Positions 56,204 to 60,692 of a DNA stretch of 64,000 nucleotides are shown here, one piece after another. The stretch spans positions 310,001-374,000 of the forward strand of contig OX638319.1 of assembly GCA_951812655.1 (NCBI GenBank), in the 5' to 3' direction. The DNA comes from an uncultured Candidatus Nitrosopumilus sp. GTDB lineage: Archaea > Thermoproteota > Nitrososphaeria > Nitrososphaerales > Nitrosopumilaceae. The position numbers and the translations under genes are program-made. The stretch's first letter is position 1, and the number at the start of each line of letters is the position of its first letter. Below the pieces are notes generated by a model. The model was given only the letters and a program-made list of their open reading frames with translations, did no database searches and had not been told where the DNA came from.

Positions 56204-56863
56204 TTACACTTTTTCATAATTCAAAACAAGATGACTTTTGATCTTCTTAATAGATTTAAGCCGTAAATTGGGGGATTTTGAAATTTTGTCAAACCCCTGA
56301 CCTTGAATAAATGATATTGCATTGTTACCTCCGATGAGAAAAGGCGAAAGAGTGAGAATTAATTCATCAAAGAGATTTTGTCTAACAAATTCCCAATTGG
56401 TAGAACCTCCACCCTCCACCAGAATTGTTGTAATTTTTTTATCTAAAAGTTTTTTCAATAATGATTTTATGTTTACAGATTTTTCACCTGTAATAATCAC
56501 GTCTACTGGAAACTTGTGCAGCCTTTCAAGGTCAAGTTTGGATATTTTTTTTGATACGGCTATAATTGTAGGAACTTGTTTGGATGTTTGCAGAATATTT
56601 GATTTTGAAGGTATGTCACCATTGGAATCCAAAATTATTCGTACTGGATTCTTTCCACGTGTGTATCGTACAGTTAGCAAAGGATCATCTTGCAACACGG
56701 TATTTTTTCCTATTAGAATTCCATCTACTCTAGATCTTAATTTGTGCAGTCTGATGATATCCTGATCTGAAGAAAATTTTGAGTCTCCCTTTTTTGTGGA
56801 AATCTTTCCATCAATAGACATGGCAGCACTTAAAATTACATATGGCTTGTTAGATTTTTCCAT
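56204..56863 (-). CDS. arfC: Diaminohydroxyphosphoribosyl-pyrimidine reductase (ArfC/RibD-C type)
   Basis: 219 aa, DHFR-like fold: SAAMSIDGKISTKKGDSKFS, RSRVDGILIGKNTVLQDDP, NPVRIILDSNGDIP, TTILVEGGGSTNWEFVRQ. Reduces the ribose of 2,5-diamino-6-ribosylamino-pyrimidinone phosphate with NADPH before deamination, the archaeal/fungal order. It overlaps the amidohydrolase gene upstream by 14 nt and ends the operon. Confidence 0.88.
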   Translation of the reverse strand: MEKSNKPYVILSAAMSIDGKISTKKGDSKFSSDQDIIRLHKLRSRVDGILIGKNTVLQDDPLLTVRYTRGKNPVRIILDSNGDIPSKSNILQTSKQVPTIIAVSKKISKLDLERLHKFPVDVIITGEKSVNIKSLLKKLLDKKITTILVEGGGSTNWEFVRQNLFDELILTLSPFLIGGNNAISFIQGQGFDKISKSPNLRLKSIKKIKSHLVLNYEKV

Positions 56864-58040
56864 GTACGATTTTCCCCTCTATCATCACTGCTTTAATCGC
56901 AGACTCTGATGCCCTGTGTACAATTGATGCGTACGGATTATGCATTGGTTCAAGATCTAAAGCATGCTTATCTAGAAAAACACAGTCAGCAACTTTTCCA
57001 GACTCAATTACGCCGACATCTTTTTTCAGTATTTTTCCTCCGTTTACTGTTGCCATCTTTAGAATTTCTCTAGGATCAATTCTTTTTTTATGAATTCCCA
57101 TTGTTACTTTCCAAAGAAAATCCATTTCCCTGAACATGTCAGGAGAATTGATCATTACATTGTCAGTACCCAACGCTAATGTGCAGCCGGACTTTTGCAT
57201 TAATTCTATGTCAGGAATTCCTTCAGCCAGAGATGAATTTGCCCTAGGACAAATTACGATGCCCCGAGTTTTTTTTGATGTAGCTTCAAGATCGGCTTTT
57301 GAGGCGTAAGTCATATGAACCAAAAAATCAGGTTTTAGAGATAGTGCTCTAATTGTTTCAGATTTTCCGGTCATCATCTTTGATTTAGCTACACTTTCTT
57401 GTGTCTCGGAAGAATGTATTGCCCTAATCTTTGACACCTTTGAATAGTAATTCAACATTCTGATGCTGTTTTCATTGGCACCGCTAATACCGATTCCATC
57501 ACATTCTTTTAGTAGCATCAGAAGTTTATCAGATTCGGCCTTAGGAAAAGGCAAATTTCTTTTTATTTCATCATGATTATGGTAAAGATCCATACGACCT
57601 AAAATAATGGCGCGTAGTGGAATGTCTGACAATGCTTTTTTTAACAGTCTCACCCCATTCAATCCAGACTCTCTAAAATCCACAAAAGTTGTAATTCCTT
57701 TTCCAATCATCGAATGACAGGTATTTTTCATGAAACTTTCAAGATTTGCATCGGAGGTGTTCTTGAGAATTTTTGACTTGACTCCGAAAACAGGGTGAAT
57801 TTTTTCGTCAATTGAACTGTTTAGAGTGATATCTTTGCCTATTGAGTCACCGATATGCGTATGAGCGTTAATGAATCCGGGAATCATAAGGAGTCCTTCT
57901 CCATCTATCGAGTTTTCATTAGCTGCAGGTTTTGTTTTTGACTGAATTTTTTTAAATAATTTATTTTGAACTCTGACATTTGTATTTGAGACAAAATCTA
58001 ATTCTGAACCGCGCAATATGCTAATATTTTTGATCAGCAT
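56850..58040 (-). CDS. Amidohydrolase of the aminohydrolase (deaminase) type in the riboflavin operon
   Basis: 396 aa. Metal and catalytic residues are in place: H60/H62 in GFINAHTHIGD, H209 and E212 in IHSSETQESV, H242 in VHMTYASKAD, and D293 in LGTDNVMINSPDMF. This H-x-H, H-x-x-E, H, GTD pattern is that of nucleobase deaminases (SAH, guanine and chlorohydrolase group). It sits between arfA (7-nt overlap) and arfC (14-nt overlap). The archaeal riboflavin pathway needs a formamide hydrolase and a pyrimidine deaminase after ArfA; neither a creatininase-type ArfB nor a RibD-type deaminase is present here. This protein is a candidate, best for the deaminase. Activity is inferred only. Confidence 0.75.
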   Translation of the reverse strand: MLIKNISILRGSELDFVSNTNVRVQNKLFKKIQSKTKPAANENSIDGEGLLMIPGFINAHTHIGDSIGKDITLNSSIDEKIHPVFGVKSKILKNTSDANLESFMKNTCHSMIGKGITTFVDFRESGLNGVRLLKKALSDIPLRAIILGRMDLYHNHDEIKRNLPFPKAESDKLLMLLKECDGIGISGANENSIRMLNYYSKVSKIRAIHSSETQESVAKSKMMTGKSETIRALSLKPDFLVHMTYASKADLEATSKKTRGIVICPRANSSLAEGIPDIELMQKSGCTLALGTDNVMINSPDMFREMDFLWKVTMGIHKKRIDPREILKMATVNGGKILKKDVGVIESGKVADCVFLDKHALDLEPMHNPYASIVHRASESAIKAVMIEGKIVHGKI

Positions 58041-58786
58041 GACAACTCATAAACTTCAGGTTTTTCTTTTCCTGAATCTCTAATTTCTCGTATGGTATCA
58101 AGGGATTTTGTTGCTAATTTTACCGCATCTCTTCCAGTACTTGCATTACCTATCCCACAATTCAAAAAAATGTCATCATCATTTTTGATCATGTCGATAA
58201 ATGATTGTACAGAATTTTTTGCTTCATCATTTGACACCACCATGAAATTGTCACCGCCCATAAAAAATGTCAGGGAATTTTTTTCTAAGAAAAATTTCGA
58301 CATTTTTGAGTACAGTTCAAAGATAATGGAGGAGATCTCATAAGGAGAATTGGTTTTTCTTCTTGAAGAAAGATCATCTACATCTAGATGCATTATGGAG
58401 GCATGCGATCCAGATTTTTCTTTAATGAATCCAAATATGCCATATTCTTCATTTAGTACAATTTTATTTTTTTTCCCTTCATATGCTTTCAAATTAGCTT
58501 CGAATGGAGAGTTTCCATATCCTATTGAAATGTTTAACCTAACATCAAATAGCGAATAAAGCGATTTTTGAATTTGTATATGATCATCCAAGTCCAATCC
58601 ATTTGATATCACAAAAAACTCATCAGATCTGTTTAGAAAAACTATACAGCTTTTGTCTGAAAATAATTTATGCACTTCTTTGTAAAGTGATGACTGTAGC
58701 ATTTGAAGTTCATGTTCTCTATCGCTTCCCAGAGTAAGCGTCCAAGGACCGTATTCAGTGATTTTCAGTATGCTGAGTTGAATCAT
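58034..58786 (-). CDS. arfA: GTP cyclohydrolase IIa (III)
   Basis: 250 aa. SILKITEYGPWTLTLGSDRE at the N-terminus and two ferredoxin-like GGDE-related halves (ISIGYGNSPFEANLKAY; FFMGGDNFMVVSND and CGIGNASTGRDAVKLATKSL). Opens GTP to the formylaminopyrimidine, first step of archaeal riboflavin and F420 precursors. Start abuts ribH stop. Confidence 0.9.
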   Translation of the reverse strand: MIQLSILKITEYGPWTLTLGSDREHELQMLQSSLYKEVHKLFSDKSCIVFLNRSDEFFVISNGLDLDDHIQIQKSLYSLFDVRLNISIGYGNSPFEANLKAYEGKKNKIVLNEEYGIFGFIKEKSGSHASIMHLDVDDLSSRRKTNSPYEISSIIFELYSKMSKFFLEKNSLTFFMGGDNFMVVSNDEAKNSVQSFIDMIKNDDDIFLNCGIGNASTGRDAVKLATKSLDTIREIRDSGKEKPEVYELSC

Positions 58787-59199
58787 TATTGGATCCTCTT
58801 TAGTTCCCCAGATATTTTCACGACTGCTTCAACTGCACGTTCTGCAACAGGTCTAATTCTAGCATAGGCATGTTTTTCCTGCATTCCGGGTCCAGAAATT
58901 CCCAAAGAGACGGGTTTTTGGTACTTTAATGACAAATTAGTCAAGGCTTGGGCTGCAGAATGAGAAATCACTTCATCGTGCTTTGTTTGGCCTTTAATTA
59001 TTGCACCCAGAGTAACCACAGCATCAACATTCGTTCTTTTCAACAGAGAATCCACAATGATGGGCATGTCAAACGCTCCGGGAACAGTACAGGTGTATGA
59101 AATTTTTAAATTCAGTGAATTTGCTTTTTCTTGAGATACAGCAAGCATTCTAGATGTCACTTCCTCATTGAATTCTGAAACCACTATAGCAATATTCAA
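58786..59199 (-). CDS. ribH: 6,7-dimethyl-8-ribityllumazine synthase
   Basis: 137 aa, archaeal size. IVVSEFNEEVTSRML, TVPGAFDMPIIVDSL, VVTLGAIIKGQTKHDEVISH (catalytic His) and PVSLGISGPGM match. Condenses the pyrimidine with dihydroxybutanone phosphate. 2 nt after ribB. Confidence 0.94.
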   Translation of the reverse strand: MNIAIVVSEFNEEVTSRMLAVSQEKANSLNLKISYTCTVPGAFDMPIIVDSLLKRTNVDAVVTLGAIIKGQTKHDEVISHSAAQALTNLSLKYQKPVSLGISGPGMQEKHAYARIRPVAERAVEAVVKISGELKRIQ

Positions 59200-59201
59200 A
59201 A

Positions 59202-59867
59202 CTAATTCACCTTGGCGTATTCTAAGAGTTCTTTTCCGTCAATCAACGGAATTCCATTTTGTTTTGCAAACTGTTCTGCCTTATCAACAGACAATGCAGC
59301 ATATGTTTCAGCATCCATCATTTCGCATATTGCAGTAACAGGTGTCAGACCTGCCACTTGAGCTAGATATACAGACATTTCTGTATGGCCCTGACGCACA
59401 GCCAGTAGGTCTTTAGATGCGATCAACAGAGGCACATGTCCAGGAGTTTTAAAAGAGCATGCAAATTTTTTCTGGCTATTTTCAACATTAAAGATTTTAG
59501 CCATTTCGCTGATTGTCAACGCCCTGTCTTTATCAGTGATTCCAGTGTATGTTTGATAGTGATTTACAGACAATGAAAAAGTAGGATGATCACCGTAAGG
59601 AGCCAATCCCATGATCATTTCTTTATTAGAGATTGAAGCATTTGAAAGAATTTCATGCATGTATTGTAAATCCAGAGAGGTTGCAAACTTATGCTCAAGT
59701 GCAATACACAAAAGTCCACCAGCGTGTTGACGCATTCTCGCAACATGTTCTGGTGTCACAAATTCTGCCGCCACCACCATGTCAATTTCATTTTCTCGTC
59801 CAGCCGAATCAAATAACAGAACAAATTCTCCACGTTTCAAAGACTCCAAGGCAATTTCTAGTGACAT
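59202..59867 (-). CDS. ribB: 3,4-dihydroxy-2-butanone 4-phosphate synthase
   Basis: 221 aa. ALESLKRGEFVLLFDSAGRE with the metal-binding Glu, DMVVAAEFVTPEHVARMRQH, GYTGVS-like HYQTYTGITDKDRALTI and the substrate loop RQGHTEMSVYLAQVAGL. Supplies the four-carbon unit to RibH. First gene of the ribB-ribH-arfA-amidohydrolase-arfC operon; TATA at 59890-59899. Confidence 0.93.
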   Translation of the reverse strand: MSLEIALESLKRGEFVLLFDSAGRENEIDMVVAAEFVTPEHVARMRQHAGGLLCIALEHKFATSLDLQYMHEILSNASISNKEMIMGLAPYGDHPTFSLSVNHYQTYTGITDKDRALTISEMAKIFNVENSQKKFACSFKTPGHVPLLIASKDLLAVRQGHTEMSVYLAQVAGLTPVTAICEMMDAETYAALSVDKAEQFAKQNGIPLIDGKELLEYAKVN

Positions 59868-59889
59868 ACATGAAGGAAAAAATATCTAA

Positions 59890-59899
59890 TTATAAAGTT
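59890..59899 (-). promoter_or_regulatory. TATA box of the riboflavin operon
   Basis: CTTTATAATT on the coding strand, centred about 27 nt before the ribB ATG at 59867. Confidence 0.6.
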
Positions 59900-59909
59900 T
59901 ACCTTAAAA

Positions 59910-59923
59910 TTGGTAATTACCAA
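59910..59923. promoter_or_regulatory. 14-bp palindrome upstream of the riboflavin operon (candidate operator)
   Basis: TTGGTAATTACCAA is a perfect palindrome about 10 nt upstream of the ribB TATA box. Related TTGATAAC and ACATTGGTAA words occur next to it (59932-59946) and upstream of ribE (near 60588-60605). It could bind a riboflavin regulator such as RbkR; the regulator gene is not in the window. Confidence 0.45.
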
Positions 59924-59944: not shown

Positions 59945-60529
59945 TTATTTCAGGATGTATTTTCCGAGAATGTCAGTTTCAATATTAACTTTATCGCCCA
60001 CTTTTTTTGTATGAAAATTTGTAACATCAATGGTATGAGGAATCAATGAAACCGAAGCAAGTGTCCCTTTGACATCAACTATTGTCAAACTTATTCCATC
60101 CATTGCTATGGAGCCTTTTTTCACAACATACTTTGAAAGCTTTTTTGGAACTTCAAACCAGACTTGAACTTCTTTGGGCTTATTCAGAATTTTTTTAATT
60201 GCAGCTACGCCATCCACGTGACCCAGGACAAAATGGCCCTCCAATCTTTCACCGGCCTTTAGACTTCGTTCGATATTTACTATTCCGCCAATTTTTAAAT
60301 TTCCAAGATCAGTTTTCTTTGTCGTTTCCTCAATCATTTCAAAAATACAACTTGATTTTGTGAGCTTTGTTGCAGTAAGACAAACCCCGTTCAAAGCCAC
60401 ACTCTGTCCAATCTTTAGTCCCTTTGCATGTTTTCCCAGATTGACAGTCATTTGGACAGCACTTCTATTTTTTGTATCCTTAGAGATTTTTTCTATTTTA
60501 CCAATACCTTCCACAATACCTGTAAACAT
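59945..60529 (-). CDS. ribE: Riboflavin synthase, alpha-chain type
   Basis: 194 aa from ATG 60529 (MFTGIVEGIGKIEK), two homologous lumazine-binding halves: VALNGVCLTATKLTKSSCIF and GSIAMDGISLTIVDVKGTLA; LEGHFVLGHVDGVA. Dismutates lumazine to riboflavin. This bacterial/eukaryotic-type enzyme replaces the unrelated archaeal RibC. A start at 60562 would add an unconserved hydrophobic leader. Confidence 0.92.
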   Translation of the reverse strand: MFTGIVEGIGKIEKISKDTKNRSAVQMTVNLGKHAKGLKIGQSVALNGVCLTATKLTKSSCIFEMIEETTKKTDLGNLKIGGIVNIERSLKAGERLEGHFVLGHVDGVAAIKKILNKPKEVQVWFEVPKKLSKYVVKKGSIAMDGISLTIVDVKGTLASVSLIPHTIDVTNFHTKKVGDKVNIETDILGKYILK

Positions 60530-60692
60530 AAATCCAACTAGAGATATTGTGTATAAAATCATTTAGACTCATTTAGAAAAAATGGCATTTGATAACATTG
60601 GTAAAACAAGAGAAATTCATTTTGGATGAATGTTAGAGAGTTCAAATCAAAAATTTAATATTTTTTTTTGAAAACTTTCTATGCAATTCGAA

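Follow-up and report, generated by a model that had tools for sequence, protein, structure and literature searches.

A predicted pyrimidine deaminase encoded between arfA and arfC in the riboflavin operon of an ammonia-oxidising archaeon

A gene of the amidohydrolase superfamily (here called X), located in the riboflavin operon of an uncultured Candidatus Nitrosopumilus sp., is predicted to encode the enzyme that deaminates 2,5-diamino-6-ribitylaminopyrimidinone 5'-phosphate in the archaeal pathway to riboflavin and the F420 precursor. We estimate the probability of this reading at about 85%. We favour it because the reading frame of X overlaps those of arfA and arfC, because this linkage is recurrent, X co-occurs with arfA and an alternative deaminase is missing, because an isocytosine deaminase, Vcz, is among the fold matches of X and the substrate of this step is an isocytosine substituted at positions 5 and 6, because the X family forms a separate clade with its own signature residues, and because MJ0699/HVO_2483 had been predicted independently before. 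The original prediction, made from the sequence of the window (the whole stretch of 64,000 nucleotides analysed here), had drawn the same inference, which co-occurrence, linkage, the absence of RibD and the separation from SAH/MTA-type deaminases now support.

Ammonia-oxidising archaea produce and release riboflavin (PMC11428151). In the literature that was accessible, no experimentally proven enzyme is on record for the deamination step of the archaeal riboflavin and F420 pathways. The present analysis adds an independent operon case from ammonia-oxidising archaea and diagnostic active-site residues.

Gene X within the riboflavin operon

Searches with NCBIfam and Pfam HMMs gave the gene order ribE-ribB-ribH-arfA-X-arfC on the minus strand of the window:

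59945 to 60562, minus strand: ribE, bacterial-type riboflavin synthase (NF006767)
59889 to 59923, minus strand: candidate operon control site upstream of ribB, palindrome TTGGTAATTACCAA plus BRE/TATA-like AAGGTAAACTTTATAAT
59202 to 59867, minus strand: ribB (TIGR00506)
58786 to 59199, minus strand: ribH, 6,7-dimethyl-8-ribityllumazine synthase (TIGR00114)
58034 to 58786, minus strand: arfA, GTP cyclohydrolase III (PF05165, 156 bits)
56850 to 58040, minus strand: X, 396 aa with ATG start, amidohydrolase-superfamily deaminase (NF005552/PRK07213), predicted 2,5-diamino-6-ribitylamino-4(3H)-pyrimidinone 5'-phosphate deaminase
56204 to 56863, minus strand: arfC, archaeal pyrimidine nucleotide reductase of the RibD C-terminal type, without deaminase domain (TIGR01508, 197.6 bits; cut-off 186)

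X overlaps arfA by 7 nt and arfC by 14 nt. The 396-aa frame overlapping both neighbours had been described in the original prediction, as had a ribB-ribH-arfA-X-arfC operon, of which the HMMs recovered ribB, ribH, arfA and arfC. The ribE gene directly upstream was absent from that description. Its true start is probably near position 60529, since homology begins at residue 12. The riboflavin synthase of this archaeon is of the bacterial RibE type and not of the archaeal RibC type. In the HMM search, arfA reached 151.8 bits against NF002587, under the model cut-off of 306.

X matched NF005552/PRK07213 ("chlorohydrolase") over its full length with 335.5 bits (cut-off 294; E = 3.7e-100), which makes it a member of that family, and Pfam Amidohydro_1 with E = 1.5e-39. 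Because of these E-values and the recurrence of the gene order in dozens of genomes, a chance origin of the observation is excluded. The overlapping arfA-X-arfC cassette is a handy unit for reconstitution.

Upstream of ribB, the perfect palindrome TTGGTAATTACCAA (59910-59923, minus strand) is followed by the BRE/TATA-like AAGGTAAACTTTATAAT at 59889-59905. A similar arrangement, GGTAATTACC...AGTAAACTTTATAA, precedes ribB in many of those Nitrososphaeria loci where ribE and ribB are separated by a gap. The palindrome is a candidate operator for a riboflavin regulator. No Rfam elements were found within the operon.

Catalytic residues, family signature and predicted structure

X carries HxH, H, HxxE, H and D in this order on a predicted (beta/alpha)8 barrel and thus conforms to subtype III (COG0402-type) of the superfamily. 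The complete catalytic set named in the original prediction (H60, H62, H209, E212, H242 and D293) was correct at all six positions, which are invariant in 57 diverse homologues. Three sites in the gene are referred to below:

57855 to 57863, minus strand: codons of the HxH metal-binding motif H60-T-H62 of X
57846 to 57848, minus strand: codon of D65, an invariant Asp at the guanine-deaminase Gln position (E. coli GuaD Q87)
57594 to 57596, minus strand: codon of R149, a near-invariant Arg at the cytosine-deaminase Gln position (E. coli CodA Q157)

Comparison with 13 COG0402 paralogues revealed an X-family signature of D65, K88, E124, R266, N294, P300 and R376. The paralogues have M or Q in place of D65, mostly E or Q in place of K88, T, V or S in place of R266, and G or S in place of N294; E124, R149, P300 and R376 also set X apart from them. 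With this signature, annotators can split the X family from COG0402 "chlorohydrolase" proteins. In a quickly built tree with long branches on some rows, the X family formed a single clade (SH-aLRT 100), separate from the 13 sampled paralogues.

These data bear on whether X might be a purine-salvage deaminase, or one of the SAH/MTA/5'-deoxyadenosine type, that merely travels with rib genes. X shares the superfamily of these enzymes, and its NCBI family name is generic. However, it scored far below the cut-offs of the respective models, its clade stands apart from the 13 COG0402 paralogues, and in distant lineages it is again found linked to rib genes. We regard such an identity as extremely improbable. 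A relationship to SAH deaminase had been raised in the original prediction, and both scores and tree separate X from the SAH/MTA type.

Several specific identities were rejected. X reached 102.9 bits against the model for 5'-deoxyadenosine deaminase (cut-off 522) and 52.8 bits against that for MTA/SAH deaminase (cut-off 779), and lies in a separate clade. Guanine deaminase was discarded at 64.9 bits against TIGR02967 (cut-off 375) and with Asp65 at the position of GuaD Q87, and cytosine deaminase with Arg149 at the position of CodA Q157 and 19% identity (hhalign). X had no PF00383 or RibD match, and a RibD-type deaminase was dismissed as well.

The AlphaFold2 model of X (pLDDT 96.7, pTM 0.94; 57-row alignment) places the metal ligands at strand ends. 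Its best PDB matches in a Foldseek search were adenosine/SAH-type deaminases, AtzA/TrzN, the isocytosine deaminase Vcz and guanine deaminases, with TM values by query length of about 0.8-0.87 and identities of 15-21%. In the model, D65 lies after strand 1, E124 after strand 2, R149 after strand 3, R266 after strand 7 and N294 after strand 8. These five residues would lie at the active-site rim, and we infer functional roles in X for them and for K88, all six being family-specific.

Distribution of X and other pathway enzymes

Neighbourhoods of X were compared across about 50 genomes from the phylum and 80 named records. Where the flanks were long enough, almost every Nitrososphaeria locus had the order (ribE-)ribB-ribH-arfA-X-arfC, sometimes with a gap before arfC. 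Family f20 has ribB..ribH-arfA-X and arfC elsewhere; in f16, f29, f34 and f36, X adjoins arfC, and arfA is elsewhere or was not found. The neighbour that X keeps thus varies by lineage, arfA in some and arfC in others, which speaks for a link at the level of the pathway and not one accidental neighbourhood.

Among 200 genomes of the phylum, the X family was present in 70 of 71 genomes with arfA and in 4 of 129 without it (Fisher p about 1e-47, which is indicative only, as it ignores genome relatedness). The profile threshold of 210 bits made 60 genomes positive, and 14 genomes of family f11 were scored positive by extrapolating from the two f11 sequences inspected; if they are left out, the counts are 56 of 71 versus 4 of 129 (p about 1e-30). 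Absence of X from f11, as weak NF005552 scores had suggested, was dropped as an interpretation when profile, signature and tree showed that the two inspected genomes do carry X genes, of divergent sequence. Both weak-scoring proteins keep the signature except R149, which is not retained in the f11 lineage, and were placed inside the X clade. The sole arfA-positive genome in which X was not found is G074. The co-occurrence with arfA/arfC and the conserved rib linkage, which the original prediction had named as points to check, were both observed, the former in 70 of 71 arfA-positive genomes and the latter across distant lineages.

Ten of the 200 genomes (families f3, f17, f23, f37 and f40) have an arfC-like reductase and no X. 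The distribution of X therefore falls short of that of arfC homologues, provided that the latter are not reductases of another kind. G080, G094, G115, G130, G148 and G160 are among the genomes with an arfC-like reductase and neither X nor arfA. Such genes are either other reductases or part of a pathway with yet another deaminase. Two loci, L175 (G019) and L176 (G109), have X-arfC pairs, and neither arfA (PF05165) nor RibA (PF00925) was found in these genomes; the missing arfA may reflect incomplete assemblies.

Outside the phylum, an NF005552 member over the cut-off was present in 115 of 120 genomes of a methanogen phylum, that of the Methanobacteriaceae locus L127. A fibrillarin gene, which we take MJ0697 to be, would mark a Methanocaldococcus genome if it stood beside X; none was found beside X at 20 loci of the methanogen phylum. 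X-family proteins were also seen in Acidimicrobiales and Gemmatimonadetes records (L086:8004-9269 and L078:221-1492), with the signature mostly kept and K88 changed to R. The L086 homologue adjoins genes for an amidohydrolase, a carbon-nitrogen hydrolase and a luciferase-like monooxygenase, and no rib genes. Recruitment of these homologues to pyrimidine breakdown is possible. Since bacterial members stand beside other hydrolase genes and not beside rib genes, the family can have other roles.

A separate RibD-type deaminase, which the original prediction had named as a point to check, is absent from the X-bearing genome. Fused RibD was not found in the phylum, and RibD-type matches in genomes with arfC comprised the reductase half only. 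The sole cytidine-deaminase-fold protein of the genome is closest to ComEB/dCMP deaminase, and its other Amidohydro_1 proteins are two, one adenine-deaminase-like and one dihydropyrimidinase-like. A control search gave no PF00383 match in Methanocaldococcus jannaschii and S. acidocaldarius, so this deaminase family can be missing altogether from an archaeon that uses the pathway; M. jannaschii, which has no PF00383 protein, has a strong X-family member. GTP cyclohydrolase II was not found in 199 of the 200 genomes of the phylum. X is linked to and co-occurs with arfA/arfC where no other deaminase is available, as is expected of the functional class of riboflavin deaminases.

We also considered whether X could be the deformylase that acts on the ArfA product in place of canonical ArfB, an enzyme that has been characterised in archaea (PMC9478397). 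X adjoins arfA, and members of the superfamily could in principle hydrolyse an N-formyl group. The only creatininase-family protein of the genome (L134:1465-2187; G000:C1:658515-659156) reached 39.7 bits against the ArfB model (cut-off 180). On the other hand, this protein has 180.7 bits to PF02633 and, from its sequence and despite the weak ArfB match, could take the ArfB step. In f11 a similar creatininase adjoins arfA-arfC and X is elsewhere; X stays beside arfC in G019 and G109, where arfA was not found; M. jannaschii has both a strong X and a protein of the creatininase family; and the closest structures to X are mostly deaminases. Deformylation was rejected as the main reading, given the creatininase and the retention of X without arfA, and we consider it very unlikely; the original prediction had likewise ranked it below deamination, in agreement with the creatininase in the genome and with X beside arfC in the two genomes in which arfA was not found. 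X itself gave no match to creatininase models, the ArfB formamide hydrolase model NF033501 included, in the NCBIfam and Pfam searches. With MftE-type models, the genome's creatininase scored 129.7 bits, more than with the ArfB model.

Predicted reaction and comparison with known deaminases

For X as the pathway deaminase, ArfA would open GTP, a creatininase-type ArfB would then take off the formyl group, and ArfC would reduce the ribosyl to the ribityl chain. X would exchange the 2-amino group for oxygen using metal-activated water, yielding 5-amino-6-ribitylaminouracil 5'-phosphate and ammonia. Metal-bound hydroxide would attack C2 of the isocytosine-like ring, with Glu212 as proton shuttle and His242 and Asp293 assisting, and ammonia would depart. 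Attack by hydroxide in this manner is the established mechanism of the amidohydrolase superfamily. The substrate assigned to X follows from gene context, and the phosphate is presumably present at this step.

X might instead act on the same ring at another stage, before reduction or after dephosphorylation. Bacterial RibD deaminates before reduction, and genomic data are compatible with any of these orders. However, in archaea reduction comes before deamination (PMC13028884, PMC3403918), and a phosphate could be bound by K88, R149, R266 and R376, which are basic and conserved. We consider another stage unlikely.

That the gene family serves the deamination step is not a new idea. An article of 2021 (PMC8305020) describes three gaps left in haloarchaeal riboflavin synthesis, for two of which, as cited there, Rodionova et al. 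(2017; PMID 28073944) had proposed candidates. Its table gives HVO_1235 as the arfB candidate, places HVO_2483, together with MJ0699, after arfC and before the phosphatase as a predicted gene, and keeps the phosphatase (EC 3.1.3.104) as a gap. Because the other entries of this table eliminate the rest, we take HVO_2483/MJ0699 to be the deaminase proposed in 2017. The original prediction had stated that the archaeal enzyme is not identified. This still applies to experimental proof, none of which was found in the accessible literature (a report in a subscription journal is possible), and no longer applies to candidates, given the 2017 proposal as relayed in PMC8305020.

Among the control genomes, those of M. 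jannaschii, Haloferax volcanii and Methanosarcina acetivorans hold one NF005552 match each at E <= 1e-75. As both source genomes of the 2017 candidates are among them, we infer from these matches and the PMC8305020 table that MJ0699 and HVO_2483 are, like X, NF005552/PRK07213 members. X differs from them in sitting inside a rib operon with arfA and arfC.

Isocytosine deamination is established for the amidohydrolase superfamily (PMC6186785), and isocytosine was the sole tested substrate hydrolysed by both guanine- and cytosine-deaminase-type classes (PMC12828455). The carbonyl-binding Gln is located after strand 1 in guanine-deaminase-type and after strand 3 in cytosine-deaminase-type enzymes (2025, PMC12828455). 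Tentatively, and judging it somewhat likelier to be wrong than right, we suggest that X may represent a third kind of active site among the pyrimidine deaminases of the amidohydrolase superfamily, in which Asp65 and Arg149 with Glu124, Arg266 and Lys88 would hold the ribityl-phosphate-bearing isocytosine in place of the carbonyl-binding Gln, and the ancestral archaeal solution to riboflavin/F420 deamination.

E. coli GuaD and CodA belong to the same superfamily as X and share its metal ligands and catalytic Glu/His/Asp. All six residues of GuaD (H82/H84/H237/E240/H276/D327) align with H60/H62/H209/E212/H242/D293 of X, and five of CodA (H62/H64/H215/E218/D314) with H60/H62/H209/E212/D293. In contrast, the GuaD Gln after strand 1 is replaced by Asp65 in X, and the CodA Gln after strand 3 by Arg149. 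The isocytosine/8-oxoguanine deaminases Vcz and URA3 resemble X in fold (TM by query length 0.84-0.87), in the HxH/H/E/H/D set and in the predicted chemistry, hydrolysis of the 2-amino group on a 2-amino-4-oxopyrimidine. They differ from X in sequence (~20% identity) and in the pocket, where X has D65, E124, R149, R266 and N294, and the predicted substrate of X, unlike theirs, bears a ribityl phosphate chain. The N-terminal deaminase of bacterial RibD carries out the same overall step as that predicted for X, C2 deamination of the riboflavin pyrimidine, with a cytidine-deaminase fold that is unrelated to X.
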